Positions 16,822 to 62,505 are shown, counted from the first letter of the stretch. The stretch is DNA of 64,000 nucleotides from Pricia mediterranea (GCF_032248455.1 NZ_JAVTTP010000001.1:1920501-1984500); one strand, 5' to 3'. Program-made: numbers and translations. Notes: generated by a model from the sequence alone, not told the origin.

Positions 16822-16855
16822 AGGTTTGAGGTTTCTTTTTGAAAGCTTCCTTGCC

Positions 16856-17200
16856 CTAAGCCCGATTGGAACGTCGAGGAACACATCGTTTGTTTAATAG
16901 AAACAACCCCATCTTGATTTTTTCATAGGACAGTTTTTCATCAAAAAAATCAAAATAAGGTCTTAATCCCTCGGGGTTTCCTAGCTCGAATTTCGCTTTG
17001 TTCAGGCCTTCAATTTCCTTTTGAGAAACAAATTGCCGCAGGTCGATGGACTTTCCCTCTTCGGCTAGCCTTAGAAAATGGCTGTGCACGGTGGATTCCG
17101 CAATGCCTCTTTTTCTGGCTATTTCTTTGACAGAATGCCCTTCTTCCAAAAGCTTGTGCGATAGGCCATGAGCCGGTAAGTCTTTGGATCCCAAGCGCCT
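16856..17200 (-). pseudogene. recQ: Detached C-terminal helix-turn-helix tail of RecQ
   Basis: In the same frame as recQ and directly after its TAA stop, the sequence stays open for about 114 codons. It encodes an HTH_40-type domain (GHSVKEIARKRGIAESTVHSH, then EEGKSIDL) of the kind normally fused to the end of Bacteroidota RecQ helicases. The only candidate start is TTG 17194. I interpret it as the RecQ tail separated by one nonsense codon; independent translation or stop read-through cannot be excluded. Confidence 0.65.
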
Positions 17201-48605: not shown

Positions 48606-48668
48606 CTTTGTACTGGTTCGTTTTAGCAAGTTTGGTTGGGAACGGGCAACAAAAATTTAACGATAATG

Positions 48669-48740
48669 TAGCCCCGGCAAGAATCGAACTTGCATCTAAA
48701 GTTTAGGAAACTTCTATTCTATCCATTGAACTACGGGGCC
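48669..48740 (-). tRNA. tRNA-Arg (CCT anticodon)
   Basis: Minus-strand cloverleaf of 72 nt: acceptor GGCCCCG/CGGGGCT, D-arm GTTCAATGGAT, anticodon stem-loop GAAGT-TTCCTAA-ACTTT with anticodon CCT, T-arm GCAAG-TTCGATT-CTTGC, discriminator A; CCA not encoded. It decodes AGG. The 297 bases from here to the next gene hold nothing recognisable. Confidence 0.93.
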
Positions 48741-49037
48741 GAGAATGCCGATTCCAGATCATCGCTAACGGCGGTTTTATCGGGACGGCAAAAATAAAGG
48801 TTTTTTCGTAAGTCGTAAAATCCTCATAAACTATTTGTCTTTCGTACTGAGAGGGTTAAAAATAGATCCACCATGTACGTGCTGATGGAATTAGAAAGTT
48901 GATAACCAAAAACATAATCCACTTTGCTGTCAGAAATTATTTCGCCCTCCATATTTAACATAAGTTGTATCTTAGGACCTCCTATCCAGCATCCAACACT
49001 ATTGAGGGATGCGTAGCCACCAAACCTGGCCAAACCA

Positions 49038-50801
49038 ATGTTAAACCGATTCAAGCTATATATGCTTGTCGGACTTTGTTCCGCCTTAATAACTAGCTGC
49101 GATCGGTCCGTTGCCGATGGCGGCCTCCAACTTCCAGTGGGATTTGAATCTTCGGTGGTGGTGGATAGCATTTCCGAAACGGCAAGGCATTTGGCCGTAA
49201 ATACCAACGGCGATATCTACGTGAATTTCAAATCTGCCGGTCCCGAAGGGTCCTTGGCCGCTTTGCGCGACAAAGATAACGATGGTAGGGCAGATAGGAT
49301 GAGGAAATTCGGGATTTCGTCCGAAGACCAAAAGAAATGGGGCTATTCCACGGCGGCCCGAATCTATAACGGGTATCTCTATTTTAGCACCGAGCTCGTA
49401 GTCTACCGTTATAAATTGAACCCTGATACCCTGGTGCCAGAAGGTAAAATGGAAACGGTACTGACCGATGATCACCCCCACGGATCTCACGAACATATTG
49501 GCAAGCCGCTAGCATTTGATGATAAGGGATATATGTATGTCCCGTTCGGTGCCCCCTCCAGTGCGTGTCAAGAGCCGAAACGTACGCCCGGCGCTCCAGG
49601 TCTTGACCCCTGTCCGCAATTGGAAGACCATGGCGGCATCTGGCGGTTCGATGCCAACAAATTAAATCAGACCCAAAAAGATGGGTTCAAATATGCCACG
49701 GGCATCAGAAGTGTCGTAGCGATGGATTGGAACTCGGTGGATGGGGAATTGTATGTGGTTATGCACGGTCGCGATGACTTGTTACGACTATGGCCCGATA
49801 AGTATTCGCCTTGGGAAAGTGCCCTTTTGCCATCGGAGGAATTTATGAGAGTAACCGAGGGTTCGGACTTCGGATGGCCGTATTGTTATTACGATCAAAT
49901 AAGGGAGGAAAAAGTACTGGCACCCGAATATGGAGGGGATGGTGAAGTAATTGGCAGATGCGCTGATTTTGAGAACCCCTTCATGGGCTTTCCGGGCCAC
50001 TGGGCACCCAACGACCTGGTCTTCTATACCGGCGACCAGTTTCCTAATCGTTATAAAAATGGGGCGTTTGTCGCCTTTCACGGTTCCACGAATCGTGCAC
50101 CCTATCCGCAATCGGGATATTTTGTGGGTTTTGTGCCATTTGAAGACGGCGAAGCCAAAGGCGAGTGGGAAGTATTTGCGGATGGGTTTGCGGAGGTGGA
50201 TCCTATCGTAAATACCAAGGATGCCCATCATAGGCCTATGGGCATAGCGGTCGGCCCCGATGGATCGCTTTATATTTCGGATTCCGTAAAGGGAAAGATT
50301 TGGAAAATAACCTACAACGGGGATACGGAAAATTTCGGGAAAGAAGAGCTCTTGGTCATGGAAAAACGGAAGCAAATGTCCCACATTCGCACTCCGGATA
50401 AGGAAAAGGACAATCTCATGCCCAAAAATTTAGTGGGCGGAGCGCAGTTATATCAAAAGTATTGCAGTGCCTGCCATCAAATGAACGGTAGGGGCGCATC
50501 GGGCAGATTCCCCCCTCTAACAAATACCGATTGGGTGGCCGGGGATAAGGAAAGACTGATAAAAATCGTACTCAACGGTATGGAGGGCAGTTTAGTTATC
50601 GATGGAGAGGTTTACAACGGGGTAATGCCCCAACACAGCTTTTTGAGCGATAGAGAAATTGCCGAGGTGTTGACGTACATCCGGTCGAGTTTTGGGAATG
50701 AGGCAAGTGAAGTGAAAATGAGCGAGGTACAGAAAGTAAAGTTGACCCAGCAGGAAAGCGGTGGGAAAATCGTTCCGATCAAAGCAGAGGCCGAAATGTA
50801 A
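49038..50801 (+). CDS. PQQ-type sugar/sorbosone dehydrogenase-like propeller fused to cytochrome c (set A)
   Basis: 587 residues: lipoprotein signal (LVGLCSALITSCDRS), a soluble-glucose-dehydrogenase-like beta-propeller (about 30-440: ARHLAVNTNGDIYVNF, VVMHGRDDLLRLWPD, GFPGHWAPNDLVFYTGDQFP, HHRPMGIAVGPDGSLYISDS), then a cytochrome c domain with CSACH (Cys476-His480). It would oxidise a periplasmic alcohol or aldehyde and pass electrons to its own haem. Paralogue at 60185-61972 with the same domain order. First gene of set A. Confidence 0.9.
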   Translation: MLNRFKLYMLVGLCSALITSCDRSVADGGLQLPVGFESSVVVDSISETARHLAVNTNGDIYVNFKSAGPEGSLAALRDKDNDGRADRMRKFGISSEDQKKWGYSTAARIYNGYLYFSTELVVYRYKLNPDTLVPEGKMETVLTDDHPHGSHEHIGKPLAFDDKGYMYVPFGAPSSACQEPKRTPGAPGLDPCPQLEDHGGIWRFDANKLNQTQKDGFKYATGIRSVVAMDWNSVDGELYVVMHGRDDLLRLWPDKYSPWESALLPSEEFMRVTEGSDFGWPYCYYDQIREEKVLAPEYGGDGEVIGRCADFENPFMGFPGHWAPNDLVFYTGDQFPNRYKNGAFVAFHGSTNRAPYPQSGYFVGFVPFEDGEAKGEWEVFADGFAEVDPIVNTKDAHHRPMGIAVGPDGSLYISDSVKGKIWKITYNGDTENFGKEELLVMEKRKQMSHIRTPDKEKDNLMPKNLVGGAQLYQKYCSACHQMNGRGASGRFPPLTNTDWVAGDKERLIKIVLNGMEGSLVIDGEVYNGVMPQHSFLSDREIAEVLTYIRSSFGNEASEVKMSEVQKVKLTQQESGGKIVPIKAEAEM

Positions 50802-50822
50802 AGCAAACTAAAAATCATCCAA

Positions 50823-51083
50823 ATGAAAAAAACATCGGTCATCAGGTCGTTCCGATTTAGTATCGTTTTCTTTCTATTTTTAGCGGTAGCGACTCTTAGA
50901 CCGATCGACCGCAACTCTTACGGCACACAGCCCGATTCGCATCTGAGAGGATTTTCGGCCTTGCCGTCCGATGGGTTCGTCTTTGAATATGGCGAAACTG
51001 CAGTGATCGATGCAGGTGGCGCCGGTTGGGACGGCTTGGCCTATCACCTAAACGGGCTCGCAGCAGCGGAATGGGTCGATTAA
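50823..51083 (+). pseudogene. Amidohydrolase remnant: signal peptide joined to a 45-residue fragment
   Basis: 86 residues. A signal-like N-terminus (FRFSIVFFLFLAVATLRP) runs directly into QPDSHLRGFSALPSDGFVFEYGE..AVIDAGGAGW, which lines up with LPDHYLANSFSALPPDGFTFRVG..TVVDCGDPGW in the intact amidohydrolases of set B. The HxH motif before it and all residues after it, including the Lys and Asp ligands, are gone. It occupies the amidohydrolase slot of set A. Probably an internally deleted gene; a retained small secreted protein is possible. Confidence 0.65.
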
Positions 51084-51153
51084 AATTCGAGATTCGTAGG
51101 TAATAAGAAAAAGTTTAAATGAGTTCATATAGTCATAATTTAAATAAAGCGTC

Positions 51154-52365
51154 ATGTTAAGCAGAAGAAAAGCACTGAAAGCCTTATCTACCTTACCCGT
51201 TATAGGCGGAATGTTGGGACCAAGTGTCCTATCCGCGAAAACCGTAGAAGCGGTGGCCATCCCCGAAGCCCGAAATTTTTTTAAGGAGCTGGGAGTCCGA
51301 ACATTTATTAACGCCGCAGGCACTTATACCTCCATGACGGGATCGTTGATGTCAAAGCCTGTGACCGATGCCATCAATTTCGGAACCACCGAATACGTAA
51401 ATCTTGACGAACTAAATGACAAGGTCGGGGAGCGTATCGCCCAGTTATTGAAATGTGAGTATGCCACAGTATCCTCCGGTGCTTTCGGAGCCATGACGAT
51501 AGGGTTGGCGGGAGTAATGTGCGGTGCGGACGAGGAAAAGGTAAAACAACTGCCCGATACGAGCGGAGTCAGAAATGAGGTGATCCTTCAAGAAGCCCAC
51601 AATATCGGGTACACGCACGCCCTGACCAATACAGGGGCAAAATTGATACGGGTAGCGAACGCCAAGGAACTCGAAAAGGCCATTAACAAAAATACGGCCC
51701 TATTATGGTTTTTAAATGCCAATACCGATCAGGGCGCGATAACCAGGGAGGAATTTGTAGCCTTGGGAAAAAAGCACAACGTCCCGACTTTTATCGATGC
51801 TGCGGCTGACGTGCCGCCTGTCGACAATCTGTTCAAATTTACCAAAATGGGATTTGATCTGGTTGCTTTTTCCGGGGGTAAAGGACTTCGAGGGCCACAA
51901 AGCGCCGGCTTGCTTTTAGGTAGAAAAGATCTGATCAAAGCGGCTCGTATGCACACCCCACCGCGCGGAACGACCATTGCCAGAGGCATGAAAGTCAACA
52001 AAGAAGAGGTATTGGGCATGTTGGTCGCTTTGGAGCTCTATTTGGCCCGAGATCATGAAAAGGAATGGGAACTTTGGGAAAACCAGATCCAAATGATTAG
52101 CGACAGCGCGAAATCCATAAAAGGAGTGGAAACCGAAATCCACGTACCTCCCCATGCCAACCATGTTCCCAGCCTAAAAATCCGATGGGACGAAAATGTG
52201 GTCAAAATTACCAAAGATGCGATGCGAGAGCAGCTGCGCGATGGGCATCCATCCATTGAAACGGTGGGCAACAATGACGAAGTCGGTATCACTACCTGGA
52301 TGATGGAACCAGGGCAAGAACGTATCGTGGCAAAACGAGTTAAAGAAGTACTCGAAAATGCTTAG
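51154..52365 (+). CDS. SelA-like PLP-dependent enzyme with Tat-type signal (set A)
   Basis: 403 residues. N-terminus LSRRKALKALSTLPVIGG is twin-arginine-like. The fold-type I PLP domain follows: NAAGTYTSMTGSLM, DAAADVPPVDNLF (PLP Asp) and FSGGKGLRGPQSAGLL with presumed PLP Lys243. Relatives include D-glucosaminate-6-phosphate ammonia-lyase and uncharacterised SelA-like enzymes found beside amidohydrolases. It likely eliminates water or ammonia from an amino/hydroxy acid. An exported PLP enzyme is unusual. Followed 23 bases later by ridA-like gene; paralogue at 58879-60138. Confidence 0.87.
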   Translation: MLSRRKALKALSTLPVIGGMLGPSVLSAKTVEAVAIPEARNFFKELGVRTFINAAGTYTSMTGSLMSKPVTDAINFGTTEYVNLDELNDKVGERIAQLLKCEYATVSSGAFGAMTIGLAGVMCGADEEKVKQLPDTSGVRNEVILQEAHNIGYTHALTNTGAKLIRVANAKELEKAINKNTALLWFLNANTDQGAITREEFVALGKKHNVPTFIDAAADVPPVDNLFKFTKMGFDLVAFSGGKGLRGPQSAGLLLGRKDLIKAARMHTPPRGTTIARGMKVNKEEVLGMLVALELYLARDHEKEWELWENQIQMISDSAKSIKGVETEIHVPPHANHVPSLKIRWDENVVKITKDAMREQLRDGHPSIETVGNNDEVGITTWMMEPGQERIVAKRVKEVLENA

Positions 52366-52388
52366 TTTCACAACTCCAAAAAAATTAA

Positions 52389-52961
52389 ATGATGAAAACC
52401 TTATTAGTTACTATTGCCTTTTTAGGTCTAATTTCGTGCAATACAGCACAGGAAAACGAGCAACAGAGCGAAGAGCCCGTACAAACGGCGGATCCGAACT
52501 ATGATCCCGAAGCCAAATTGGCCGAATTGGGCATCGAGCTCAGCCCCGCATCCCCGCCGATAGCGAACTTTGTTAATGCGGTACGTACCGGAAACCTGAT
52601 TTTCTTATCGGGCAAAGGCCCAAAAAAAGCGAATGGCGAAAATATTACCGGAAAATTGGGTGACGACCTGAGCATCGAACAGGGCTACGAAGCGGCACGT
52701 ATCACCGGAATCAATCAGCTATCGGTATTGAAGCACGAACTCGGCAACCTCAATAAAGTTATACGTGTCGTTAAAGTGTTGGGCATGGTCAACTGCACCC
52801 CTGATTTCCCTGATCAGCCCAAGGTCGTAAACGGATATTCCGATCTGATGGTCGAGGTGTTCGGAGAGCGCGGAAAGCATGCCCGTGCCGCGGTAGGCAT
52901 GGGTTCTTTGCCAGGAAACATCGCGGTAGAGGTCGAAATGATCGTGGAGGTCGAAGACTAA
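52389..52961 (+). CDS. RidA-family lipoprotein (set A)
   Basis: 190 residues: lipoprotein signal (TLLVTIAFLGLISCNTAQ), Gln/Glu-rich linker, then a YjgF/RidA domain: PASPPIANFVNAVRTGNLIFLSGKGP, GYEAARITGINQLSVLKHELG, GKHARAAVGMGSLPGNIAVEVE with the conserved Arg. RidA proteins hydrolyse enamine/imine intermediates released by PLP dehydratases, which matches the SelA-like gene directly upstream. Outer- or inner-membrane lipoprotein placement implies that the reaction takes place in the periplasm. Confidence 0.9.
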   Translation: MMKTLLVTIAFLGLISCNTAQENEQQSEEPVQTADPNYDPEAKLAELGIELSPASPPIANFVNAVRTGNLIFLSGKGPKKANGENITGKLGDDLSIEQGYEAARITGINQLSVLKHELGNLNKVIRVVKVLGMVNCTPDFPDQPKVVNGYSDLMVEVFGERGKHARAAVGMGSLPGNIAVEVEMIVEVED

Positions 52962-52976
52962 GAAGGGTGAATCATT

Positions 52977-54071
52977 TTAGGATGTTTCCGGATTTTGAGA
53001 CTTAGGAGGTTTTTTGTGCCAGTAGGAGGCCAGAATGGATCCCGTGATGTTCATCAACGGCCCGAAAACGGCCGGCGCAAGACCCATGGTAGCTATCTTT
53101 CCCAGGGAATTCGCGATGCCCGAGGCAAGTCCGCCGTTCTGCATCCCTACTTCGAGGGCAATGGTGCGTGCGTCCTGTTCCGGCATGTTGAAGACCTTGG
53201 CAAAGCCATAGCCCAGACCATACCCGAACAGGTTATGCACCAGTACGAGCAGCATTAGGATGCCTCCGATATCGAGAAGGCTGTCCCTTCCGGCGGCGGT
53301 AATGATCATTATTATAATGCCGATGGCCAACATCGATACCACGGGCATCGCCCTATCGAGCCATTTGGTCTTGAAGAGCCGGTTGAACAACAGTCCCGCA
53401 CCGATGGGGATAATGATCATCTTGGTAATGCTCCACATCATATCGAGAACGTCGATCTGTACGAACTCCCCCGCCAAAAGCTTCATCAACAGGGGGGTCA
53501 GGAAGGGTGCCAACAAGGTAGCTATAGAGGTTATGGTGATCGAGAGTGCCAGGTTCGCATTGGCTAGATAGGCCATCACGTTCGAGGCGACCCCGCTGGG
53601 GGAGCATCCGATCAATACGATGCCGGCCGCGATCTCGGGCGGAAAATTACTGACCTTGGCCAGCCCGTAGCCCACAAACGGCATGATCATCAACTGTGCG
53701 GCAACGCCTATCAGAACCCCCCTAGGGGTCTTGAATACCGCCGCGAAATCCTTCAGGCCCATCTGGGTGCCCATGCCGAACATGATGATCTGGATCAGCG
53801 GGATGATCAAGATCGTCAGCTTGACATTCCCTATTTCGGTAAATAGTCCCGGATAGTACAGTGCCGCCGATACCCCCGCAAAGATCATCGTGGTGAACAC
53901 CATGCCGTTCAGGGATTTATAACCGCTGAACCCCAGCGCCAGGGTCGTAAAGAATAACAGCATATAGGGTCCGGCACTCCCAATATTCCCGGTAAGGACC
54001 ATGCCGAGCACGACAAGTAACAATAGCAGGGCGATGCCCAGGCTTATGGAATATAGGTTGATCTTCTTCAT
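52977..54071 (-). CDS. BASS-family (bile acid:sodium symporter-like) organic anion transporter
   Basis: 364 residues from ATG 54071 (upstream in-frame codons add a polar leader). Nine to ten transmembrane helices; family signatures are IVLIGCSPSGVASNVMAYLANANLALSI and the second half's ALEVGMQNGGLASGIA. BASS members co-transport sodium with organic anions (bile acids, pyruvate, pantothenate). Distal gene of set B; it converges on set A with only 15 bases between the stop codons. I infer that it imports the acid product of the periplasmic pathway. Confidence 0.9.
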   Translation of the reverse strand: MKKINLYSISLGIALLLLLVVLGMVLTGNIGSAGPYMLLFFTTLALGFSGYKSLNGMVFTTMIFAGVSAALYYPGLFTEIGNVKLTILIIPLIQIIMFGMGTQMGLKDFAAVFKTPRGVLIGVAAQLMIMPFVGYGLAKVSNFPPEIAAGIVLIGCSPSGVASNVMAYLANANLALSITITSIATLLAPFLTPLLMKLLAGEFVQIDVLDMMWSITKMIIIPIGAGLLFNRLFKTKWLDRAMPVVSMLAIGIIIMIITAAGRDSLLDIGGILMLLVLVHNLFGYGLGYGFAKVFNMPEQDARTIALEVGMQNGGLASGIANSLGKIATMGLAPAVFGPLMNITGSILASYWHKKPPKSQNPETS

Positions 54072-54102
54072 TATATGTAGTAGTTGGTGGTTGTGCGGTC
54101 GG

Positions 54103-54582
54103 TTATAATTTGTACGCCTGTCTTGCCAGAAGCCGGAGTTTGCCATTCTTCTTCTGAAAGACGAGCATGATCCCGATGTGTACCTCTGCGGGTTCGCCCT
54201 CGTTCGTTCCCTTAGCAGAAAGTACGTGCCTTGCTATGGCGGTACTCCCTGAAATATGGATGCTTTCGTCGGAAGTGTCGATGGACAGAAAATCGAAGGG
54301 GCCGTTCATCAGGTCGTCGATAAACGTTTCCCCATCCTGGATGTTTCCGCTCGAATGCCCGTAGGACAGGTCATCCGCGGCCATACCTTTTAAAACGGTC
54401 CTTTCGGGATCCACCAACGCGGCGTTCAGGGCCGCAACGGCATCTTCGACTTCGCCCCTTTCCAGTGCGGGGTTTTCAACATTGGTCTCGGTCGAAGCCG
54501 GTCCGGCAGGTCTGTTCCCATCTTTGCAGGCCAGGAAAGAGAAGAGAACGAGCGCAAAGAACAAGAGACTTAAATTTTTCAT
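54103..54582 (-). CDS. NTF2-like (SnoaL/DUF4440-type) lipoprotein
   Basis: 159 residues: lipoprotein signal (LSLLFFALVLFSFLACKDG), then an NTF2-like cone fold: EDAVAALNAALVDPERTVLKGMAADDLSYGHSSG, GETFIDDLMNG, SGSTAIARHVLSAKG and KLRLLARQAYKL. These domains bind or isomerise small molecules; His/Asp pocket residues are not assigned. It sits between the transporter and RraA-like genes in set B (gaps 31 and 45 bases). Confidence 0.85.
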   Translation of the reverse strand: MKNLSLLFFALVLFSFLACKDGNRPAGPASTETNVENPALERGEVEDAVAALNAALVDPERTVLKGMAADDLSYGHSSGNIQDGETFIDDLMNGPFDFLSIDTSDESIHISGSTAIARHVLSAKGTNEGEPAEVHIGIMLVFQKKNGKLRLLARQAYKL

Positions 54583-54627
54583 GGATCTGTTGTTTTTAAA
54601 TAGGACCTGTTACTGTTCTGCGGACAT

Positions 54628-55560
54628 CTACCACGTTCGTTCGCTCAATATTCTATCGACCTGTTCCCTGGTCATCTTCCCGAGTTCGGGGTTCTTTTCG
54701 AGCCACTGGATAAAATCGTCCTTGATCTTGTCCGTCCACTTGCTGTCTATCTCGCCGGTAGTATATTGGTTGGATCTGATCATTTCAAAACCAAAGACAT
54801 CCTTTAGGGATACGAACTCCGCCGTACCGACCACCTGCTCGGCCAGATGGGCGGGAATGAACAGGACGCCTTCCCTTTTGGCCAGTACCAGGTCGCCGGG
54901 CAATACCATGGCCTCCCCGATGCGGATCGGTGTATTGAGGCCCATAAGCACTTCTTCCTCAAGAAAGGAGGGGTGGAAGTCCCGTACAAAGGCATTGAAG
55001 CCCTCGATCTCGGCGATGGCCTCAAGGTCTCTTGCACTCCCGTTGAAGACCACCCCGTTCCCGGATTTGCTGAAAATCGACGTCGCCAGGGTGGCGCCCA
55101 TCAGCGTGCCCGCCTTGATCTTGCCAAAGCTGTCGGCCACGTACACATCGCCGGTGGTGAGCTCTTCTATGGGCCAGGAGTTGGTGTTGCCCTTTCTCCC
55201 CTGGGAATTTATACCTCTCTCCTTGATATTTTTCTCGACATCGGGGCGGCTGGGCATGAAAAGGGCGGTAAGGGCCCGACCGACCACGGGCACATCGTCG
55301 TGCACCATTTTCCAATTGCCCTCGAACTGGTTGGTGTACCCCTGGTTCTTCAATACGGTCCATGCGTCGTCGATACCGATCTTTTTGGCACGTTCCAACA
55401 GATCGTCCGGCAGTTTGGGCCTACCGTCATCGAAGCGCTCCCCCTTCCATTCCGAGGTAAGAAATATCAGTTCTTCCTTTGGGATTGTTTGTGCCGATAG
55501 GTTTTGAAGCAGAAAAAAGATGAATATAAAAAATGCCAAAAAATTGAATCTATACCTCAT
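54628..55560 (-). CDS. Secreted RraA-like aldolase/decarboxylase
   Basis: 310 residues from ATG 55560: signal peptide (FLAFFIFIFFLLQNLSAQ), an added N-terminal region, then the RraA/HMG-aldolase-like fold (about 110-250): GDVYVADSFGKIKAGTLMGA, VVFNGSARDLEAI (Arg-Asp motif) and PGDLVLAKREGVLFIP. Characterised relatives split 4-hydroxy-4-methyl-2-oxoglutarate-type substrates or decarboxylate oxaloacetate, others bind RNase E. An exported form argues for a catabolic aldolase or decarboxylase in the periplasm. Gap to the RidA-like gene is 39 bases. Confidence 0.87.
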   Translation of the reverse strand: MRYRFNFLAFFIFIFFLLQNLSAQTIPKEELIFLTSEWKGERFDDGRPKLPDDLLERAKKIGIDDAWTVLKNQGYTNQFEGNWKMVHDDVPVVGRALTALFMPSRPDVEKNIKERGINSQGRKGNTNSWPIEELTTGDVYVADSFGKIKAGTLMGATLATSIFSKSGNGVVFNGSARDLEAIAEIEGFNAFVRDFHPSFLEEEVLMGLNTPIRIGEAMVLPGDLVLAKREGVLFIPAHLAEQVVGTAEFVSLKDVFGFEMIRSNQYTTGEIDSKWTDKIKDDFIQWLEKNPELGKMTREQVDRILSERTW

Positions 55561-55599
55561 TATGATCAAGAGTTGAACCGGTTAAAGAATTATACTGGG

Positions 55600-56076
55600 T
55601 TAGTCCAAGGAAGCTATACAATCCATTTCCACCAAGGAATCTCCCGGTACCCCCCCGTAGGTGGCAACAGTAGTCCTAACGGGAGGATTCTTGCCAAAAC
55701 GTCCCCTAAACACCTCGTTCATTCCCTTGTAATCCGCCAGATCGGCCAGATATACATTGACCTTCAATACTTTTTCCATTGAGGAGCCGTGCTTTTCCAA
55801 CTCTTTTTGAAGTTCTTGCAAAACGATTTCCGTATGGGCCTTAATTTCATAAGGTTCTACATGGGCGCCCTTGCCGGCGATATATAGCGTGTTCCCGTGT
55901 TTTACGCCTCCCGAGAATAATGGTATATCCTGATCGTAGGTAATCTCACCAACGACCTCTTTCTGTGCCCTGACCGGTCTCTTGCCCATGGCATTGACGG
56001 TTCCCACGCCGAAAATCGCCGCCAGGCCCATTCCCATTTTTTTAAATGATGCTCTTCTACTTGTCTTGTCCTTCAT
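55600..56076 (-). CDS. RidA-family protein with Tat-type signal (set B)
   Basis: 158 residues from ATG 56076, chosen because the twin-arginine leader KTSRRASFKKMGMGLAAIFG starts there. The RidA domain follows: YDQDIPLFSGGVKHGNTLYIAGKG, HTEIVLQELQKELEKHGSSMEKVLKVNVYLAD, RTTVATYGGVPGDSLVEMDC. It differs strongly from the lipoprotein RidA of set A. Its Tat signal parallels that of the SelA-like enzyme in this set. A 183-base gap, without recognisable gene, separates it from the amidohydrolase. Confidence 0.88.
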   Translation of the reverse strand: MKDKTSRRASFKKMGMGLAAIFGVGTVNAMGKRPVRAQKEVVGEITYDQDIPLFSGGVKHGNTLYIAGKGAHVEPYEIKAHTEIVLQELQKELEKHGSSMEKVLKVNVYLADLADYKGMNEVFRGRFGKNPPVRTTVATYGGVPGDSLVEMDCIASLD

Positions 56077-56259
56077 TTTTACTGATTTTAGATTAGGAAT
56101 TCTATTCTTGGTCTTAAAATTTATATTGGATGTTTCAGATCGTACCATTCCCGACCTTCCCGCTGTAAACGGCCGTTGCGTCTCTTGAGTCGGAACCTGT
56201 ACTTGGAAATGGGGGCAGGGATTTCACCATCGTTTTTTAACAGCTCAATTTACAGCTTT

Positions 56260-57504
56260 TCACCGTATAACAATGGGGTCTGCGATTCCATTAAGATCGT
56301 ACACGATTTTTCCGTCACGTATGGTGACTTCACATTCCAATTTTTTATCCCCCTCCATTTTATGGCCCGTATAATCAAAAAAACCGAAATGACCTTCCCT
56401 CATCCCTAACAAGGTGACATCCGCAGGCGCACCAACGGATAAGTTCCCCAAATCTTCGCGTTTGATGGCTTTCGCGGGATTCCAGGTGCTCGCCGCGATT
56501 ACCTCCTTGAGATTCATGCCCATCAACATAAACTTTGACATGACGTTCAGCATATCCTTCATGGCGTTGTTCATACTGCCCGTATGCAGATCTGTGCTGA
56601 TGGTATTGGGATAAAAACCTTCTTTCACTGCGGGAATGGCCTGGGAATAGGCAAAGCTGATGCCTCCATAGCCCACGTCGAAGATAATACCCCTTTCCTG
56701 GGCCTTATAAACGAAGGGCTTTACCTTTTTGGTTTGCACATCTACAATCGCTTCCCTGCTGGCCAACTGCCCGAAAGCATGCGTAAAGATATCTCCGGGC
56801 CGAAGGTGTTCCATATACAGTTCTTCGATGGATAACGGGGGGTTACTTCCTCCAAAATCGATGACGACAGGGATATCGGCCATATTGCCCGCTTCTACCG
56901 CACGGTCTACAGGTGTCCACTCGGGTCCGTTGTAATGGGCGACCTTGAACCCAACGATATCCTGGGGATATTGTCTGGCGACCATGGCACTCATTTTTGG
57001 ATCCATATCATGGGTATCCTGTTCATAGACGCCGCCCCGCATCCCTTCGCCCACGATGTTCAAAAAGGCAAGCACCCTGGTCTTGGACCTATCGACGATA
57101 TTCGCCTTGAAGGTGGGGAACGTTTTCCAACCGGGACCGCCACAGTCCACTATCGTCGTTACGCCTACCCGAAAGGTAAAACCGTCCGGGGGCAGTGCGT
57201 TAAAACCGTTGCTGTAGGCATGTCGCGGCTCGGTACCCGCAAAAACATGCCCGTGAATATCGATAAGTCCGGGGGTCACAATCAATCCTTTGGCATCGAC
57301 TACCTGCACGGCCTGTTCCGCACCGATGTTTTTTGCCACCTCGGCAATCTTCCCGTCATTGATGGCCACGTCCATTACGGCATCGATTTCGTTCTTGGCA
57401 TCAATGACATGGCCTCCCTTGATAAGGATGTCATATTCTTGGGCGATAGCGGAATTACCGATGGAGGATAAAATCATCGCGAGCAATAAACAGTAACTTT
57501 TCAT
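56260..57504 (-). CDS. Secreted amidohydrolase/deacetylase family metallohydrolase (set B, copy 1)
   Basis: 414 residues: signal peptide (CLLLAMILSSIGNSAIAQ), then an amidohydrolase TIM barrel: PGLIDIHGHVFAG (HxH), VGFKVAHYNGPEW (Lys likely carboxylated), DIFTHAFG, and TISTDLHTGSMNNA with the catalytic Asp. It belongs to the group near EF_0837-type hydrolases, which deacylate acyl-hydroxy or acyl-amino acids and co-occur with SelA-like PLP genes. Tandem with a close paralogue 39 bases upstream. Confidence 0.9.
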   Translation of the reverse strand: MKSYCLLLAMILSSIGNSAIAQEYDILIKGGHVIDAKNEIDAVMDVAINDGKIAEVAKNIGAEQAVQVVDAKGLIVTPGLIDIHGHVFAGTEPRHAYSNGFNALPPDGFTFRVGVTTIVDCGGPGWKTFPTFKANIVDRSKTRVLAFLNIVGEGMRGGVYEQDTHDMDPKMSAMVARQYPQDIVGFKVAHYNGPEWTPVDRAVEAGNMADIPVVIDFGGSNPPLSIEELYMEHLRPGDIFTHAFGQLASREAIVDVQTKKVKPFVYKAQERGIIFDVGYGGISFAYSQAIPAVKEGFYPNTISTDLHTGSMNNAMKDMLNVMSKFMLMGMNLKEVIAASTWNPAKAIKREDLGNLSVGAPADVTLLGMREGHFGFFDYTGHKMEGDKKLECEVTIRDGKIVYDLNGIADPIVIR

Positions 57505-57543
57505 GGTCTTAGAATTAAATGAGTCCAGTTGATAAAAATAAGA

Positions 57544-58797
57544 TTAGCGAACGACTATGGGCTCTGCAATCCCGTTAAGATCGTAAACGATTTTTCCGTC
57601 CCTTATGGTCATTTCGCATTCGAACTTTTGTTTACCCATCAACTTTTTGCCTTTTCTGTCCCAAAAACCAAAGTCGCCTTGCCTCAAATTGAAAACGGCC
57701 ACATCGGCTGGGGAACCTTCCGAAAGATTACCCAGTTCTTCACGCTTTATGGCCTGTGCGGGCGCCCAGGTACTGGCCTTGATTACTTCGGGAAGAGGCA
57801 TGCCCAAGGCCAAAAACGTACCCATCACATTGAGCATATCCTTCATCGCGCTGTTCATGCTTCCGGTATGGAGATCGGTACTGATCGTAGTAGGGAAAAG
57901 TCCCGCTTCCGTCGCAGGTATGGCCTGCCCGTAATCAAAACTGGCGCCGCCATATCCAACGTCGAAAATGATGCCCCTCTCCCTAGCTTTGGTAACAAAA
58001 GGCTTCAATTGTCGGGATTTTGTATCGACTATCGGATCTCTTCTGTCGAGTTCGGTGTAGGTATGAGTGTAGATGTCCCCGGGACGGAGATGGTCAAAAA
58101 ATAATTCTTCTATGGACAACGGGGGATGTCTATCATCGCCCCCGAAATCAACGATGACCGGAATCCCCCCAGCCAGTTCCCCGGCTTTTACCGCTCGGTC
58201 GACGGGAATCCAGCTTGGGTCCTCAAAATGGGCCACCTTGAACCCCACGATATCGTCCTTAAAACGCTTGGCCACGTTGGCACTTAGTTTGGGGTCCATA
58301 TCACTGGTGTCCTGTTCGTAGGCGCCGCCCCTCATCCCCTCGCCTACGATGTTCAGGAAGGCAAGCACCCGGGTCTTGGACCTATCGATGATATTTTCCT
58401 TAAAAACAGGAAACGTTTTCCATCCGGGATCACCACAATCTACCACTGTGGTTACGCCTACCCGAAATGTAAAACCATCGGGAGGAAGGGCACTAAAGCT
58501 ATTGGCGAGATAGTGGTCGGGAAGGGTTCCCGCAAAGACGTGCGTATGGATATCGATAAGGCCGGGAGTTACATAAAAACCTTCGCCATCGACAACCTGA
58601 ACGGCTTTTTCTGCATCAATATTTTTTGTCACTTTGGCGATTTTACCTTCCTTGATGGCCACATCCAGTAGGGCATCGATGTTGTTTTTGGCATCAATGA
58701 CATGGCCGCCTTTGATTACAATGTCATATTCCTGGGCGGCAACGCGGTTTCCAAAGAATGACATGATCAGAACAAGTATTAGGTAGAGACTTTTCAT
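57544..58797 (-). CDS. Secreted amidohydrolase/deacetylase family metallohydrolase (set B, copy 2)
   Basis: 417 residues, closely similar to the 56260-57504 product throughout: signal peptide (LYLILVLIMSFFGNRVAAQ), PGLIDIHTHVFAGTLPDHYL, VGFKVAHFEDPSW, DIYTHTYTE, TISTDLHTGSMNSA, ending YDLNGIAEPIVVR. Tandem duplication is evident; differences cluster between the Lys and Asp motifs (e.g. VIDFGGSNPPL against VDFGGDDRHPPL), which may alter specificity. It precedes copy 1 by 39 bases and follows the SelA-like gene by 81 bases. Confidence 0.9.
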   Translation of the reverse strand: MKSLYLILVLIMSFFGNRVAAQEYDIVIKGGHVIDAKNNIDALLDVAIKEGKIAKVTKNIDAEKAVQVVDGEGFYVTPGLIDIHTHVFAGTLPDHYLANSFSALPPDGFTFRVGVTTVVDCGDPGWKTFPVFKENIIDRSKTRVLAFLNIVGEGMRGGAYEQDTSDMDPKLSANVAKRFKDDIVGFKVAHFEDPSWIPVDRAVKAGELAGGIPVIVDFGGDDRHPPLSIEELFFDHLRPGDIYTHTYTELDRRDPIVDTKSRQLKPFVTKARERGIIFDVGYGGASFDYGQAIPATEAGLFPTTISTDLHTGSMNSAMKDMLNVMGTFLALGMPLPEVIKASTWAPAQAIKREELGNLSEGSPADVAVFNLRQGDFGFWDRKGKKLMGKQKFECEMTIRDGKIVYDLNGIAEPIVVR

Positions 58798-58878
58798 GGT
58801 TTAATTATTTTGGCCTTAAAATGATTCTTCGTTATATAAACTCCCGCCCGCCCTTAAAAAGAGTGGGGACGCCGCCTT

Positions 58879-60138
58879 TCATCGGACCGCCTGCCGCAAA
58901 ACCTCCTTGAGTCGTTTGGCTACAATGGATACCTGCTCCGGTCTCAGCAGCACAACTCCCACGCTCAATAACTCTTTTCCATCCTTTTGCCCTACACCGC
59001 CACAAACGATACTGGGCGTTCCTCCTTTCAATGCATCATATACTTCTTTGGGAGTGGTCTTAACTCGTTTTTGGTCCCAAGTGACATGAAGGCTGGGGAC
59101 GACATTGGCCGGGCCGTCAGGCACGTGGGTCTCTCCCTTTACACTTGGTATGGTTGCAATTTCCGACCGAATGCTCTCGGCACGGGACAGCCAATCTTGC
59201 CATTCTTTCTTATGATCGCGTTCCAGGTAGGATTTGAGCGCGGCATACATGCCGAACATCTCCTCCTTGTTCACTTTCATCGGACGGCCGATAGGAGCTT
59301 CATGCGGACTATTGTTCAGTTTGGCAGCCTCAATAAGGTCTTTTCTCCCGAAAAGCAATCCCGCACTCTGGGGACCTCGGATCATCTTGCCCCCCGAGAA
59401 GGTGACGAGGTCAAAGCCCATTTTTTGATATTTGAAAAGGTTTTCCACCGGGGGGACATCGGCCGCCGCATCTATAAATGACGGAATTTTGTGTCGTTTG
59501 CAAACGGCTACAAATTCTTCATGATCTATAGAATCCTTAATGCCGTACCATGATATGGCACCGTTAAAGAACAGGGCCATTATCGTATTCTTGTTAATGG
59601 CCTTTTCCATTTCATCCGGCCCCTCTACCTCTATAATTTTTGCTCCGGTTGTGGTTATTGCCTGATCGAATACATAACGATGGCTTTTCTGCATGATGAC
59701 CTCGGGGCGGTCTCCAGCAAGATTGGGCAGCTGTTTTCTTTTATCGGCATCGGTGCCGGTAATGATACCCGCCGTACCCAACACCAATGCGGCAGCGGCC
59801 CCGGAGGTAACCATGGCCGCCTCGCAATGAAGCATTTCGGCAATCTTGGCCCCGACCTTGTCCTGTAGTTCGTACATATCGGCGAAGTCATGCGCTGTGG
59901 CATTGATGGCCGCCAGGGTCTCGGGCATCATTAACGATCCGGACAAAAAGGTCATGGTCGCACCTGCATTGATCACACGGGTGACTCCCAGTTCCCTAAA
60001 ATAATCATGTTTTGGGGGTAAACCTAGCGGATTTTCTTTCGATTTCTCGCTTCTTGCCATGGCCATAGGCCCAAGCCCGACCAAGGCGGTGGTAGAGGCC
60101 ACTATTTTTTTAATTGCCGATCTTCTTTCGGTTTTCAT
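58879..60138 (-). CDS. SelA-like PLP-dependent enzyme with Tat-type signal (set B)
   Basis: 419 residues from ATG 60138, giving the leader KTERRSAIKKIVASTTALVG; ATG 60180 would add 14 basic residues and cannot be excluded. Fold-type I PLP core: NAGATMTFLSGSLM, DAAADVPPVENLF, FSGGKMIRGPQSAGLLFG with presumed PLP Lys251. Paralogue of 51154-52365 (shared motifs in the same order). It follows the PQQ-type dehydrogenase gene immediately (stop at 60185), so the two are co-transcribed. Product probably an enamine/keto acid handled by RidA. Confidence 0.87.
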   Translation of the reverse strand: MKTERRSAIKKIVASTTALVGLGPMAMARSEKSKENPLGLPPKHDYFRELGVTRVINAGATMTFLSGSLMMPETLAAINATAHDFADMYELQDKVGAKIAEMLHCEAAMVTSGAAAALVLGTAGIITGTDADKRKQLPNLAGDRPEVIMQKSHRYVFDQAITTTGAKIIEVEGPDEMEKAINKNTIMALFFNGAISWYGIKDSIDHEEFVAVCKRHKIPSFIDAAADVPPVENLFKYQKMGFDLVTFSGGKMIRGPQSAGLLFGRKDLIEAAKLNNSPHEAPIGRPMKVNKEEMFGMYAALKSYLERDHKKEWQDWLSRAESIRSEIATIPSVKGETHVPDGPANVVPSLHVTWDQKRVKTTPKEVYDALKGGTPSIVCGGVGQKDGKELLSVGVVLLRPEQVSIVAKRLKEVLRQAVR

Positions 60139-60184
60139 CTGTTGTCGTTTCTTTGCTCGGTTCCTTAACATCAAAACCATCTAT

Positions 60185-61972
60185 TTATTTGGCGGTCGCT
60201 TTTCTGACTTTGGCCACTTCATCCGGGTTTATTCCACTCGAACGATTACCAAAATTCTGTCTGATGTACGTTAAAATAAGGGCAATTTCTTCATTCTTTA
60301 GGTGGTCAAGTTTGGGCATCACATTGTTATACGATTTTCCACGTACCATAATTTCTCCCTCAAGACCGTTCAGGATGACGTCGATCAACTTTTCCTTGTC
60401 ACCTATGACCCAATCGGAATAGTTCAAAGGTGGAAAGCGGTCGTTGCCCCGCCCGTTCTTTTGGTGGCATAGCGCGCAATGGGAATTGTATAGTCTAGCA
60501 CCTTCCGCCATGTTTCCCTCCTTTGGGAAAAAACCATCCGCTTCCGTTGCCACGATGTCTTTTACCTCATCAGGAGTTTTTATATTCGGGGCCTGTTTTT
60601 TTCGTTCATCCATTTTTGCCAATTGTGCCTTGCCAAAACCTTCTTTATCGCCTTTGTACATAACGCGCCATATCTTTCCTTTTACCGAATCGGATATGTA
60701 TATCGAACCATCCGGGCCCATCGCAAGACCCATTGGGCGATGTTTGGCGTCACTGGTATTGAGTATGGTATCGACCCCGGCAAAACCATCGGCAAATACT
60801 TCCCATGATCCCGAAGGCGTTCCGTTTTCCATGGGCACAAAGGCGACAAAATAGCCCGCTTGCGGATAGGGGGCTCTGCTTGTAGAGCCGTGAAAGGCCA
60901 TAAAAGCTCCATTTTTATAACGCTCGGGGAATTGATCTCCCGTATAGAACAAAAGATCGTTAGGGGCAAAATGTCCCGGGAAACCCACCAAGGGTCTCTC
61001 CAGCGTATTGACCTTTTCACCCTGCTTTTTTCCGTCCCCTCCATACTCGGGACTGAGAAAATAGTCTTCCTTCATTTGATCGTAATAATAGTATGGCCAA
61101 CCCGCATCGGAACCCTCCTCGAGCTTTAGAAAAACTTCGGAAGGCAGCATGGCACCCTCCCATACCGTAAATTGTTCCGGCCATGTATTGTGCATATGGT
61201 CCCTGCCATGAACAACGGTAAACAGGTTATCGGCTTGGTCGTTCCATTCCAAGGCCACGACACTTCTTAGGCCGGTTGCAAATTTTTCCCCATCTTTTTG
61301 GAGCTGCCCTTTTTTATTGGCATCGAACTTCCATATGCCCCCCCTGTGTTCGAGAATGGGACAGGGATCCATTCCAGGGGACATAAAAACTCTATCATCC
61401 ACTTGACAGGCATCGGAGGGTGCCCCGAAGGGCGTATATAAATTTCCCTTTTTATCGAAAGCTATCGGTTTGGTATCGTGTTGCCGGGGAGGCTGGGTGT
61501 CTCTAACGATCAGTTCCATTTCGGAGTCCGGCACCAATTTATCGGTCAATTTCTGACGGAATATGCGGGTGACGGAACTAAAATAGAGATAGTTGTTATG
61601 AATGCGCATCGCCGTTCCATAACTGCTTTTATCGAGATAATCGCCGAAAGTCTCAATAATATCGGCCTTACCATCGTTGTCGGTATCGCGAAGGGCGGCG
61701 TTACCCCCTACGGAATCGGGAAACCTCAATTTTACGTAGATGTCGCCGTTGTCCTTTACGGCTAGATGTCTGGCACGGCCTTCAAGACTATCGACCACTA
61801 CCAGTGCTTCAAAGCCCTCCGGTAAAAAAAGTCCCCCATTGTCCTCGTCGCCGATGGGCAAATTTGCGGTACATTGAGAAAAGATAATACAGATAAGAAA
61901 GGAAAAAGTAAATATGCTCCAACTTTCACCCGATATTATTTTGATATAAAAAGCACTCGAATTAAATTTCAT
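60185..61972 (-). CDS. PQQ-type dehydrogenase-like propeller fused to cytochrome c (set B)
   Basis: 595 residues: lipoprotein signal (FTFSFLICIIFSQCTANLP), propeller (ARHLAVKDNGDIYVKLRF, VVHGRDHMHNTWPEQF, GFPGHFAPNDLLFYTGDQFP, HRPMGLAMGPDGSIYISDS), then a cytochrome c domain with CALCH (Cys499). Same architecture and motif order as 49038-50801. It leads the eight-gene set B on the minus strand. Its substrate is unknown; the pathway's alcohol or sugar-acid intermediate is a candidate. Confidence 0.9.
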   Translation of the reverse strand: MKFNSSAFYIKIISGESWSIFTFSFLICIIFSQCTANLPIGDEDNGGLFLPEGFEALVVVDSLEGRARHLAVKDNGDIYVKLRFPDSVGGNAALRDTDNDGKADIIETFGDYLDKSSYGTAMRIHNNYLYFSSVTRIFRQKLTDKLVPDSEMELIVRDTQPPRQHDTKPIAFDKKGNLYTPFGAPSDACQVDDRVFMSPGMDPCPILEHRGGIWKFDANKKGQLQKDGEKFATGLRSVVALEWNDQADNLFTVVHGRDHMHNTWPEQFTVWEGAMLPSEVFLKLEEGSDAGWPYYYYDQMKEDYFLSPEYGGDGKKQGEKVNTLERPLVGFPGHFAPNDLLFYTGDQFPERYKNGAFMAFHGSTSRAPYPQAGYFVAFVPMENGTPSGSWEVFADGFAGVDTILNTSDAKHRPMGLAMGPDGSIYISDSVKGKIWRVMYKGDKEGFGKAQLAKMDERKKQAPNIKTPDEVKDIVATEADGFFPKEGNMAEGARLYNSHCALCHQKNGRGNDRFPPLNYSDWVIGDKEKLIDVILNGLEGEIMVRGKSYNNVMPKLDHLKNEEIALILTYIRQNFGNRSSGINPDEVAKVRKATAK

Positions 61973-61988
61973 TTGCGATAGACCTGTA

Positions 61989-62321
61989 TTATTTAATATT
62001 CTGGACGTCTGGCGCTGTGGTTTCGGTTAATTTATCCCACCAGACTTTACGGGTGAATGAATTCCCTTCTCCTGTCTGTCCTCGGCTTCCTTAAAAAAGT
62101 TGACCGCGTTGATGGCACCTACTGAATCGGGCAGTACAAAACGGGTACCGATTTTTCGGCCGGTAAGGTCCCCGGGATATTCACCACATGACCGCCTCCG
62201 CCAATAGCAGATTCATTTCTGCATTCGTCAATATCCGCTTTGGGGAATCACAGGCCAAAATAGTCTCTGAGTGCAGCTCGGACCAGGAGGCAAAATCATC
62301 GGGCCTCCCATAAAAAAATCC
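61989..62321 (-). pseudogene. Decayed SusD/RagB-like gene (C-terminal remnant)
   Basis: On the minus strand three overlapping frames carry successive SusD C-terminal signatures: YGRPDDFASWSEL and KRILTNAEMNLLLAEAV (stop at 62181), then GTRFVLPDSVGAINAVNFF, then NSFTRKVWWDK (stop at 61989). These are the usual order (TPR helix with LLLAEA, Arg-Phe-Pro segment, terminal VWWD) but split by frameshifts. No SusC is visible. The 533-base gap 61973-62505 otherwise holds only AT-rich sequence ahead of the next gene. Confidence 0.7.
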
Positions 62322-62505
62322 TTTTGAGCATCCCTTCTATGAACTAATTAAGAATAAAATTAAATAAATCATAAATATAGGCGATATTAATATTAGAATC
62401 CAAATCAATAAATTCACCGAGAAGTAATCGTACAGAGAAAAGAATATTCATACCAACCCAAAAGATCTTAAATTCCTATCTTGTCAATGTTAAAATCCCA
62501 GAATC

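Follow-up and report, generated by a model that had tools for sequence, protein, structure and literature searches.

Among the genes of Pricia mediterranea there is a cluster that looks like a complete catabolic pathway and in which nearly every enzyme carries an export leader, and the question is what such a pathway could be doing outside the cytoplasm. The cluster occupies positions 49038-61972 of a stretch of 64,000 nucleotides (GCF_032248455.1, NZ_JAVTTP010000001.1:1920501-1984500; hereafter the window, from whose first letter all positions are counted). A first-pass annotation of this DNA had proposed that an N-acyl, amino or hydroxy acid is deacylated, deaminated and cleaved in the periplasm, and that only the keto acid is taken up. 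Our analysis leads to a modified answer: we consider it moderately probable, judging from the sequences, that the cluster encodes an envelope pathway that works outside the inner membrane on an N-acetylated 2-amino sugar of the N-acetylglucosamine or N-acetylgalactosamine type, from which a keto acid would be imported.

The cluster consists of eleven intact frames, whose starts and stops were read and whose families were assigned with Pfam and NCBIfam. It contains two sets of genes for a pyrroloquinoline quinone (PQQ)-type sugar dehydrogenase/cytochrome c, a SelA-like pyridoxal phosphate (PLP) enzyme, a RidA protein and an amidohydrolase, together with single genes for an RraA-like protein, a BASS-type organic anion transporter and an NTF2-like lipoprotein. 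All the gene types listed in the first-pass annotation are therefore present and intact, but they had been undercounted, since the PQQ, SelA-like and RidA genes are each doubled, like those of the amidohydrolases. On the plus strand, PQQ1 (49038-50801), SelA1 (51154-52365) and RidA-L (52389-52961) converge on eight minus-strand genes, which are, from right to left, PQQ2 (60185-61972), SelA2 (58879-60138), AMH2 (57544-58797), AMH1 (56260-57504), RidA-T (55600-56076), the RraA-like gene (54628-55560, its start being an ATG that lies three bases before the frame from which starts and stops were read), the NTF2-like gene (54103-54582) and the BASS gene (52977-54071). The intergenic gaps measure 15-81 bp, except for 183 bp between RidA-T and AMH1 and 352 bp between PQQ1 and SelA1.

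The main genes of this set are inherited together. When 16 aligned SelA-like proteins were used to scan named genomes, at least 594 stretches with at least 576 relatives came up, and the best 80 of these gave 79 loci, which represent the closest SelA-like relatives among those listed and not a sample of the whole family; by record title, 78 belong to Bacteroidota and one to candidate division KSB1. Full flanks (at least 19 kb) were available for 54 loci, the other 25 being shorter than 19 kb. All 54 contain SelA, 53 any RidA, 53 the amidohydrolase, 42 the PQQ-cytochrome c gene, 42 RidA-T and 32 RidA-L. The sole full-flank locus without RidA and amidohydrolase is that of KSB1 (L101), where the SelA copy is leaderless. 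The gene set is rare, being found in 3 of 246 genomes of the order with the DgaE-family model and in 8 of 395 genomes of the phylum with the SelA1 protein as query. When the 395 Bacteroidota genomes were searched with RidA-T, 28 had a match at E<=1e-12, and the matches at E<1e-30 were exactly those of the eight SelA genomes, which span four families; the best genome outside these eight stood at 7e-17. Were genomes independent, an exact overlap of eight in eight among 395 would have a chance of 7e-17; in fact they are not independent. The amidohydrolase was found at E<=1e-40 in the same eight genomes and in four genomes of one other genus, in which no SelA lies alongside in the two of four loci that were read. 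The survey of co-occurrence, which the first-pass annotation had named as a test that could overturn it, thus found RidA and amidohydrolase with SelA almost without exception, and SelA and RidA-T in the same eight genomes. Close relatives of the exported amidohydrolase (58-60%) without a SelA-like gene were seen at loci L193 and L194 (genus g217, family f66), in the former beside a 360-aa gene that is lactonase-like by eye. Other recurring neighbours, identified by eye in the 79 loci and not by a family search, are SusD (21), SusC (19), sulfatase (12) and TRAP (7) genes.

Leaders were called from a twin-arginine (RR) pair, a home-made rule and the presence of an N-terminal extension, and were found on all products of the cluster except the BASS protein. 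Twin-arginine translocation (Tat) leaders are present on SelA1 (MLSRRKALK), SelA2 (MKTERRSAIKK) and RidA-T (MKDKTSRRASFKK), lipobox leaders on PQQ1 (ITSC), RidA-L (LISC) and the NTF2-like protein, and leaders of the general secretory (Sec) type on the RraA-like protein, AMH1 and AMH2; the leader of PQQ2 is hydrophobic, and its lipobox is non-canonical. The RR pair is present in all 16 of the SelA copies first collected, those of the window included, and in 89 of the 90 SelA-like copies from the 79 loci, whereas the remaining leader sequence varies. The home-made rule recognized a leader in 89/90 SelA, 68/69 RidA-T, 43/44 RidA-L, 83/86 amidohydrolase, 34/34 RraA and 55/56 PQQ copies, not counting one RraA and two PQQ copies that are truncated at contig ends. 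In a wider set of cytosolic controls it found none in 14 of 17 SelA-like and 9 of 10 RidA proteins, and it flagged none of three cytosolic sugar-acid enzymes. Calls of the Tat class are sharper, with 89/90 SelA copies versus 1/17 cytosolic homologues and 66/69 RidA-T copies versus 0/10. A lipobox occurs in 32 of the 44 RidA-L copies, the SelA-like domain sets in at about residue 41, compared with residue 4 in the nearest solved relative, and the genome has one copy of TatC. Export of the cluster enzymes is therefore very likely as far as leaders can tell, and the claim that nearly every enzyme bears one was borne out across families.

The nearest solved relative of the SelA-like enzymes, by both sequence and fold, is D-glucosaminate-6-phosphate ammonia-lyase (DGL; PDB 7lc0), with TM-scores of 0.78/0.84 (the SelA1 model has a pLDDT of 83.5), and the PLP lysine, in the motif SGGK in SelA1, is aligned in 40/40 rows. 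According to the sections consulted of the cited papers, to which our accounts of published systems are limited throughout, Arg301, Arg332 and Arg346 of DGL lie near the phosphate of the substrate and Arg226 near its carboxylate, and His163 is the proton donor (PMC9529869). In an alignment of the 90 locus copies with the two copies of the window (92 rows), arginine is found in 0/92 rows at each column of the phosphate triad, and the column of Arg226 has Arg or Lys in 88/92 rows; His is present in 8/92 rows at the column of His162 and in 13/92 at that of residue 160. Such a loss of the phosphate triad, seen in 92/92 rows, would be expected if the substrate lies outside the cell and is unphosphorylated. 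The simplest reading is that the SelA-like enzymes are lyases for an unphosphorylated 2-amino-aldonate, an activity that would suit a location without ATP. Because the relative is specifically a glucosaminate-type lyase, an amino-sugar acid is a likelier substrate than the D-amino acid considered earlier.

In a tree of 40 rows with several long branches, 18 leader-bearing copies, among them one from a plasmid of Granulicella, group with the leaderless KSB1 copy; the branch of all 19 is weak (89/74) and a branch of 18 of them is strong (100/99). The KSB1 copy (L101:9953-11089) thus lies inside the exported group of the tree although it has no leader and neither RidA nor amidohydrolase beside it. 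On the Granulicella tundricola plasmid (NC_015065, locus L116, Acidobacterial) one run of genes encodes RraA with a hydrophobic start, SelA and RidA, each with an RR pair, an amidohydrolase with a Sec-like leader and a lactonase, and the plasmid also encodes another PLP-dependent transferase, likewise with an RR leader. L036:9169-10848 and L028:10735-12456 encode divergent SelA-like paralogues with Tat leaders; these are about 560-570 aa long and extend at the C-terminus past the SelA-like domain.

Both RidA proteins pass the Pfam gathering scores (PF01042 with 64.6 bits for RidA-T and 43.5 bits for RidA-L, the latter also PF14588 with 62.1 bits), and both have the C-terminal arginine (Arg158 and Arg166 of the listed frames) that we take to be catalytic; against TIGR00004 they score 30.0 and 59.8 bits, under the cut-off of 106.25. 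RidA-L shares 54% and 60% identity with the RidA frames that neighbour cytosolic SelA-like genes at two loci (L121, L124). The amidohydrolases, which are 71% identical to each other and are putative deacetylases, exceed the NF006689 (PRK09237) cut-off of 371 with 457 (AMH1) and 436.4 bits (AMH2), and stay below that of the EF_0837 subfamily (TIGR03583; 208.3 and 206.2 bits, cut-off 432.15). No useful published name for their group (Atu3266/cog3964) was found in the open-access literature. An amidohydrolase of the same family is paired with DgaE in two cytosolic dga-type operons (Clostridioides difficile, Klebsiella) and stands with RidA and SelA-like genes in three alphaproteobacterial clusters. 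On haloarchaeal plasmids, leaderless SelA-like genes have a polysaccharide lyase family 8 gene (L119) or heparinase II/III genes (L118) in their vicinity, a hint of amino sugars from glycosaminoglycans.

PQQ1 and PQQ2 each combine a GSDH-type beta-propeller (PF07995, 45.7 and 32.9 bits, cut-off 25) with a C-terminal cytochrome c (Cytochrom_C, 44.7 and 39.0 bits; CSACH at 476 and CALCH at 499). With a 587-residue model of PQQ1 (pLDDT 81), PDB fold ranks 1-18 were all taken by AA12 pyranose dehydrogenases and PQQ aldose/glucose dehydrogenases. Since the protein most resembles sugar dehydrogenases, the pathway probably begins with the oxidation of a sugar and not with a ready-made acid, which changes the starting point proposed in the first-pass annotation. 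An open reading frame (ORF) of the SMP-30/gluconolactonase type is found in 22 of the 79 loci by clustering and in 21 by tblastn, with Pfam assignment on representatives, and a CBM9 lipoprotein in 36. Neighbours that would fit an amino sugar include genes of the glucosamine-isomerase family (4 of the 79 loci) and of the GlcNAc-2-epimerase family (6).

From the gene content, the leaders, the co-inheritance, the fold families, the lost 6-phosphate site and the company kept by the BASS and RraA-like genes, we infer a substrate, an order of steps, individual activities, a cargo for the BASS protein and a location. The PQQ/cytochrome c protein would oxidize the sugar at C1 to a lactone, passing electrons to the respiratory chain, and the lactone would open spontaneously or through an SMP-30/gluconolactonase, which is encoded in the cluster of some relatives. 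The Sec-exported amidohydrolase would then remove acetate from the N-acetyl-aldonate, the Tat-exported SelA-like enzyme would dehydrate the 2-amino-aldonate to an enamine/imine, and the exported RidA proteins would hydrolyse this to 2-keto-3-deoxy-aldonate and ammonia. The BASS protein would carry the keto acid into the cell, where 2-keto-3-deoxygluconate (KDG) kinase and 2-keto-3-deoxy-6-phosphogluconate (KDPG) aldolase would complete its breakdown, and the RraA-like enzyme might split part of the keto acid or deal with a side form. One may guess that the two gene sets are for two epimers of the sugar.

The best clue to the cargo comes from a second kind of locus. The BASS protein (Pfam SBF, 136.9 bits, over the gathering score; TIGR00841, 222.2 versus a cut-off of 326.3; PanS model NF047939, 205 versus 400) has an 86% identical copy elsewhere in the same genome, at locus L197 (G000:C1:4100000-4118000). 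There it is accompanied by two Tat-leader dehydratases of the enolase superfamily (galactonate/gluconate-dehydratase-like, under curated cut-offs), two leader-bearing RraA-like genes, a PfkB kinase whose best matches are KDG-kinase-type models (under cut-off), a KDPG aldolase that exceeds its curated cut-off (373 versus 275 bits) and UxuA. We then read 20 BASS neighbourhoods from 20 genomes, namely those of 17 genomes (out of 20 that have a BASS match but no SelA), of a second BASS of genome G465 and of the only BASS of G426 and G497. Within 4 kb, a dehydratase was present in 12, an RraA-like gene in 12, both in 11 and neither in 7; one further BASS neighbourhood (L239) also has the kinase and the aldolase. 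The RR motif occurs in 18/18 dehydratases at E<=1e-60, the two of P. mediterranea included, and outside this count stands a distant dehydratase (L242, 33%, 16813-18001) with no visible leader. In G426 and G497 the SelA loci read have no BASS gene, and the sole BASS at E<=1e-80 lies in a dehydratase locus. A dehydratase acting on an aldonate and an ammonia-lyase acting on a 2-amino-aldonate both yield a 2-keto-3-deoxy-aldonate, so that a transporter type common to both is the economical reading; and the position of BASS and RraA-like genes beside a KDG-kinase-like gene and a KDPG aldolase at L197 argues for uptake of the uncleaved acid. Of the earlier logic, deacylation, deamination and import of a keto acid are retained, whereas cleavage by RraA outside the membrane is unproven and the kinase and aldolase at L197 point away from it.

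Such cleavage is nevertheless the alternative that survives best, and we regard it as possible but doubtful. The RraA-like enzyme (Pfam RraA-like, 65.5 bits) would split the 2-keto-3-deoxy acid into pyruvate and glyceraldehyde outside the membrane and the BASS protein would take up pyruvate, a scheme compatible with the proposed pathway as far as the keto acid. Elsewhere, pyruvate is the cargo of some BASS proteins, model names place 4-hydroxy-2-oxo-acid aldolases in the RraA-like family, and RraA lies near BASS in both SelA and dehydratase loci. The Arg-Asp pair, which we take to define the RraA-like aldolases, is R180/D181 here (numbering of the longest frame) and is invariant in 10/10 relatives aligned. 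On the other hand, the KDG-kinase-family gene and the high-scoring KDPG aldolase of L197 would then be needless, RraA is absent from 32 of the 54 full-flank loci, and the score against the HMG/CHA aldolase model (NF006731) is 48.8 bits, far under the cut-off of 179.

With import of the uncleaved acid as the preferred reading, a wider proposal can be made, which we hold as an even matter: that Bacteroidota possess a modular Entner-Doudoroff front end outside the inner membrane. Swappable Tat-exported sets, enolase-type dehydratases for neutral aldonates and deacetylase, SelA-type ammonia-lyase and a dedicated exported RidA for amino-aldonates, would all lead to 2-keto-3-deoxy-aldonates, and a BASS protein, sometimes common to several sets, would import only that acid, ammonia and acetate staying outside.

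A second alternative keeps the exported architecture and changes the substrate to an N-acyl beta-hydroxy D-amino acid (e.g. N-acyl-D-serine or N-acyl-D-threonine), which would be deacylated and dehydrated, the PQQ protein and the lactonase belonging to a neighbouring sugar pathway. We consider this unlikely. It draws on a cytosolic analogue, OngC, which also deaminates D-serine and D-threonine and whose partner OngB is nearest to D-aminoacylases (PMC9537276), and on rhizobial SelA-like relatives that lie beside ATP-binding cassette (ABC) transporters, dipeptide-type by annotation in one record. Against it stand the PQQ sugar dehydrogenase in most full-flank loci, the gluconolactonase-type ORFs and the sharing of BASS and RraA with sugar-acid dehydratase loci. 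Moreover, the same genome has a separate, leaderless PLP gene with a serine-dehydratase domain, with its own RidA and a GntP permease. This ong-like pair, with the third RidA of the genome, likewise leaderless, lies at L198:6438-9492.

Still less probable is that the SelA-like protein is an oxygen-dependent PLP enzyme like Cap15 (PDB 8t7j), carrying out an oxidative decarboxylation of a beta-hydroxy amino acid and placed outside the cell, where oxygen is at hand. Cap15 is the second-best solved relative by sequence and fold, but the ammonia-lyase is nearer by E-value (6e-35 versus 1e-28), Cap15 groups with DGL in the tree, on a long branch outside the exported group, and a RidA partner fits an enamine product. 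That the proteins are cytosolic and their leaders misread is scarcely credible, for although the leader rule, a crude one, makes a call in 457 of 1620 shuffled N-termini, the RR pair of the SelA copies, the near absence of Tat-type calls among cytosolic homologues, the late onset of the SelA-like domain, the lipoboxes of RidA-L and the presence of TatC all speak for export.

It is important to mention the observations that weigh against the amino-sugar pathway. SelA1 and SelA2 score below the DgaE cut-offs (TIGR01437, 192.7/193.5 versus 385.3 bits; NF047797, 162.6/140.8 versus 600), the column of the proton donor His163 contains His in 0/92 rows (89 are gaps), and the SelA-like family is functionally mixed, as Cap15 illustrates. 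BASS (26) and RraA (22) are each present in under half of the 54 full-flank loci. KDG kinase and KDPG aldolase, searched with the own-genome queries at E<=1e-20, occur in 0/79 SelA loci (25 of them shorter than 19 kb), and a place for them within these loci was given up, a KDG-kinase-like gene and a KDPG aldolase being found instead at L197. The window cluster has no lactonase or CBM9 gene, lactonase-family matches lying elsewhere in the genome; with a single GH18 match in the genome, a chitin source is not obvious (LPMO, i.e. lytic polysaccharide monooxygenase, genes were not searched). The leader rule is permissive, since it flags 3/17 cytosolic SelA-like proteins, 1/10 cytosolic RidA proteins and 1/3 cytosolic amidohydrolases at the annotated start (2/3 with any start), and its result with shuffled N-termini amounts to a sizeable false-positive rate. 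The weak point of the gene list is the NTF2/DUF4440-like lipoprotein (Pfam DUF4440, 52.6 bits), probably accessory, which was dropped from the core because its gene is found in 0/79 SelA loci, with one 34% match in L032.

A link between the missing histidine and RidA also failed as a rule and is compatible with the data only. The DGL mutant H163A sets free the enamine (PMC9529869), so that loss of His163 could, as a hypothesis, create a need for RidA. We checked 20 plasmid-borne SelA-like relatives besides the two solved ones (Granulicella, among the 20, is not cytosolic). The nine alpha- and betaproteobacterial genes keep His162/His163, and RidA lies nearby in 9/9; the gene table shows it for seven, and tblastn for the two whose records carry no gene table. 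In Klebsiella and C. difficile the pair is likewise retained, and the 9 kb read there contains no RidA. Among the eight relatives without the pair, RidA is adjacent in two haloarchaeal ones and about 4 kb away in one (seen in the gene table, missed by tblastn), and the stretch read contains none for five (two haloarchaeal, three rhizobial).

To the left of PQQ1 are a glycosidase-type gene and a tRNA gene (48669-48740, minus strand), the sole match of an Rfam scan of 48500-62600; the tRNA may be the left border of the cluster. To the right, a Gfo/Idh/MocA oxidoreductase (Pfam) with a Tat leader (62506-63912, plus strand) may open a flanking sugar locus extending beyond the end of the window. 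Beyond that end are a Tat-leader protein (L199:85-1077; oxidoreductase-type by eye, with a weak match only), an amidohydrolase, an Nramp-family transporter, SusC/SusD-like genes (by eye), a GntR/FCD regulator and a gene of the glucosamine-6-phosphate-isomerase family (133.7 bits, under the nagB cut-off of 236.9). The two Tat-leader oxidoreductase-type proteins are another sign of sugar chemistry moved outside in this organism.

Inside the cell, RidA proteins protect PLP enzymes from enamines. The conservation of a Tat-exported PLP lyase with an exported RidA from Flavobacteriaceae to Chitinophagaceae suggests that enamine-forming catabolism and its clean-up can move outside together; if so, catabolic PLP-enamine chemistry accompanied by a RidA guard of its own would, to our knowledge, be seen outside the cytoplasm for the first time. 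If the proposal is correct, free or oxidized amino sugars could be used without sugar-phosphorylating uptake, acetyl groups and nitrogen would be shed in the envelope, and one transporter type would serve several pathways. It would also give a function to families annotated merely as SelA-like, RidA, amidohydrolase or RraA, with clear predictions for enzyme assays.

Known systems resemble the cluster in parts. The ong cluster of Pseudoalteromonas prydzensis acts on GlcNAc1A, the C1-oxidized chitin monomer, and likewise groups a deacetylase, a PLP-dependent deaminase and RidA, giving 2-keto-3-deoxygluconate for the kinase KdgK; its deacetylase and deaminase are, however, predicted to be cytosolic, OngC is of fold-type III, the deacetylase resembles D-aminoacylases, an LPMO and not a dehydrogenase supplies the sugar acid, and an SSS-family transporter, OngIT, imports the intact acid (PMC9537276). 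The window cluster, with its SelA-like enzyme, BASS transporter and leaders, does not belong to that type. The dga system of Salmonella provides the nearest solved relative, DGL, whose substrate is phosphorylated by the phosphotransferase system (PTS) and which has the three arginines and the His163 that are absent here (PMC9529869). The two dga-type operons read have the same amidohydrolase family adjoining the lyase, and one has a lactonase, but no RidA was found in the 9 kb read around them. Alphaproteobacterial clusters (Aureimonas, Martelella, Phyllobacterium) place amidohydrolase, RidA and SelA-like genes close together, with IclR; they differ in having an ABC transporter, no obvious leader (SelA-like begins at or near the conserved domain), and a SelA that keeps His163 and two of the three phosphate arginines. 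A route for N-acetylglucosamine predicted in chitin-using natronoarchaea, hypothetical according to its authors, also has amino-sugar oxidation followed by a SelA-like lyase, with glucose dehydrogenase, DgaE-like and RutC (RidA family) genes in chitinase clusters, but deacetylation comes first, a phosphorylated intermediate is assumed and RutC is read as a repressor (PMC12343721).

As to location, Tat-leader dehydratase loci with RraA-like and BASS genes, found here in Bacteroidota, share both of these families and an expected 2-keto-3-deoxy acid product, and differ in that an enolase-superfamily dehydratase replaces deacetylase, ammonia-lyase and RidA; no published description of them was found in the open-access literature. 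PvdN of Pseudomonas aeruginosa is PLP-dependent. Both it and PA2531 are aminotransferase-type enzymes with Tat signal peptides, annotated for pyoverdine tailoring or amino-acid metabolism, and the consulted part of the source mentions no RidA partner or catabolic cluster (PMC6085387). The first-pass annotation had called a periplasmic PLP-plus-RidA pathway undescribed. This holds for the exported version with its own RidA, as the open-access literature yielded no description of this cluster or of a RidA or SelA-like lyase that is exported, whereas Tat-exported aminotransferase-type enzymes (PMC6085387) and a cytosolic route with deacetylase, PLP enzyme and RidA (PMC9537276) are known. The cluster is thus best read as a relocated relative of the cytosolic routes of amino-aldonate deamination, with a dedicated RidA and a transporter type common to a second exported route.

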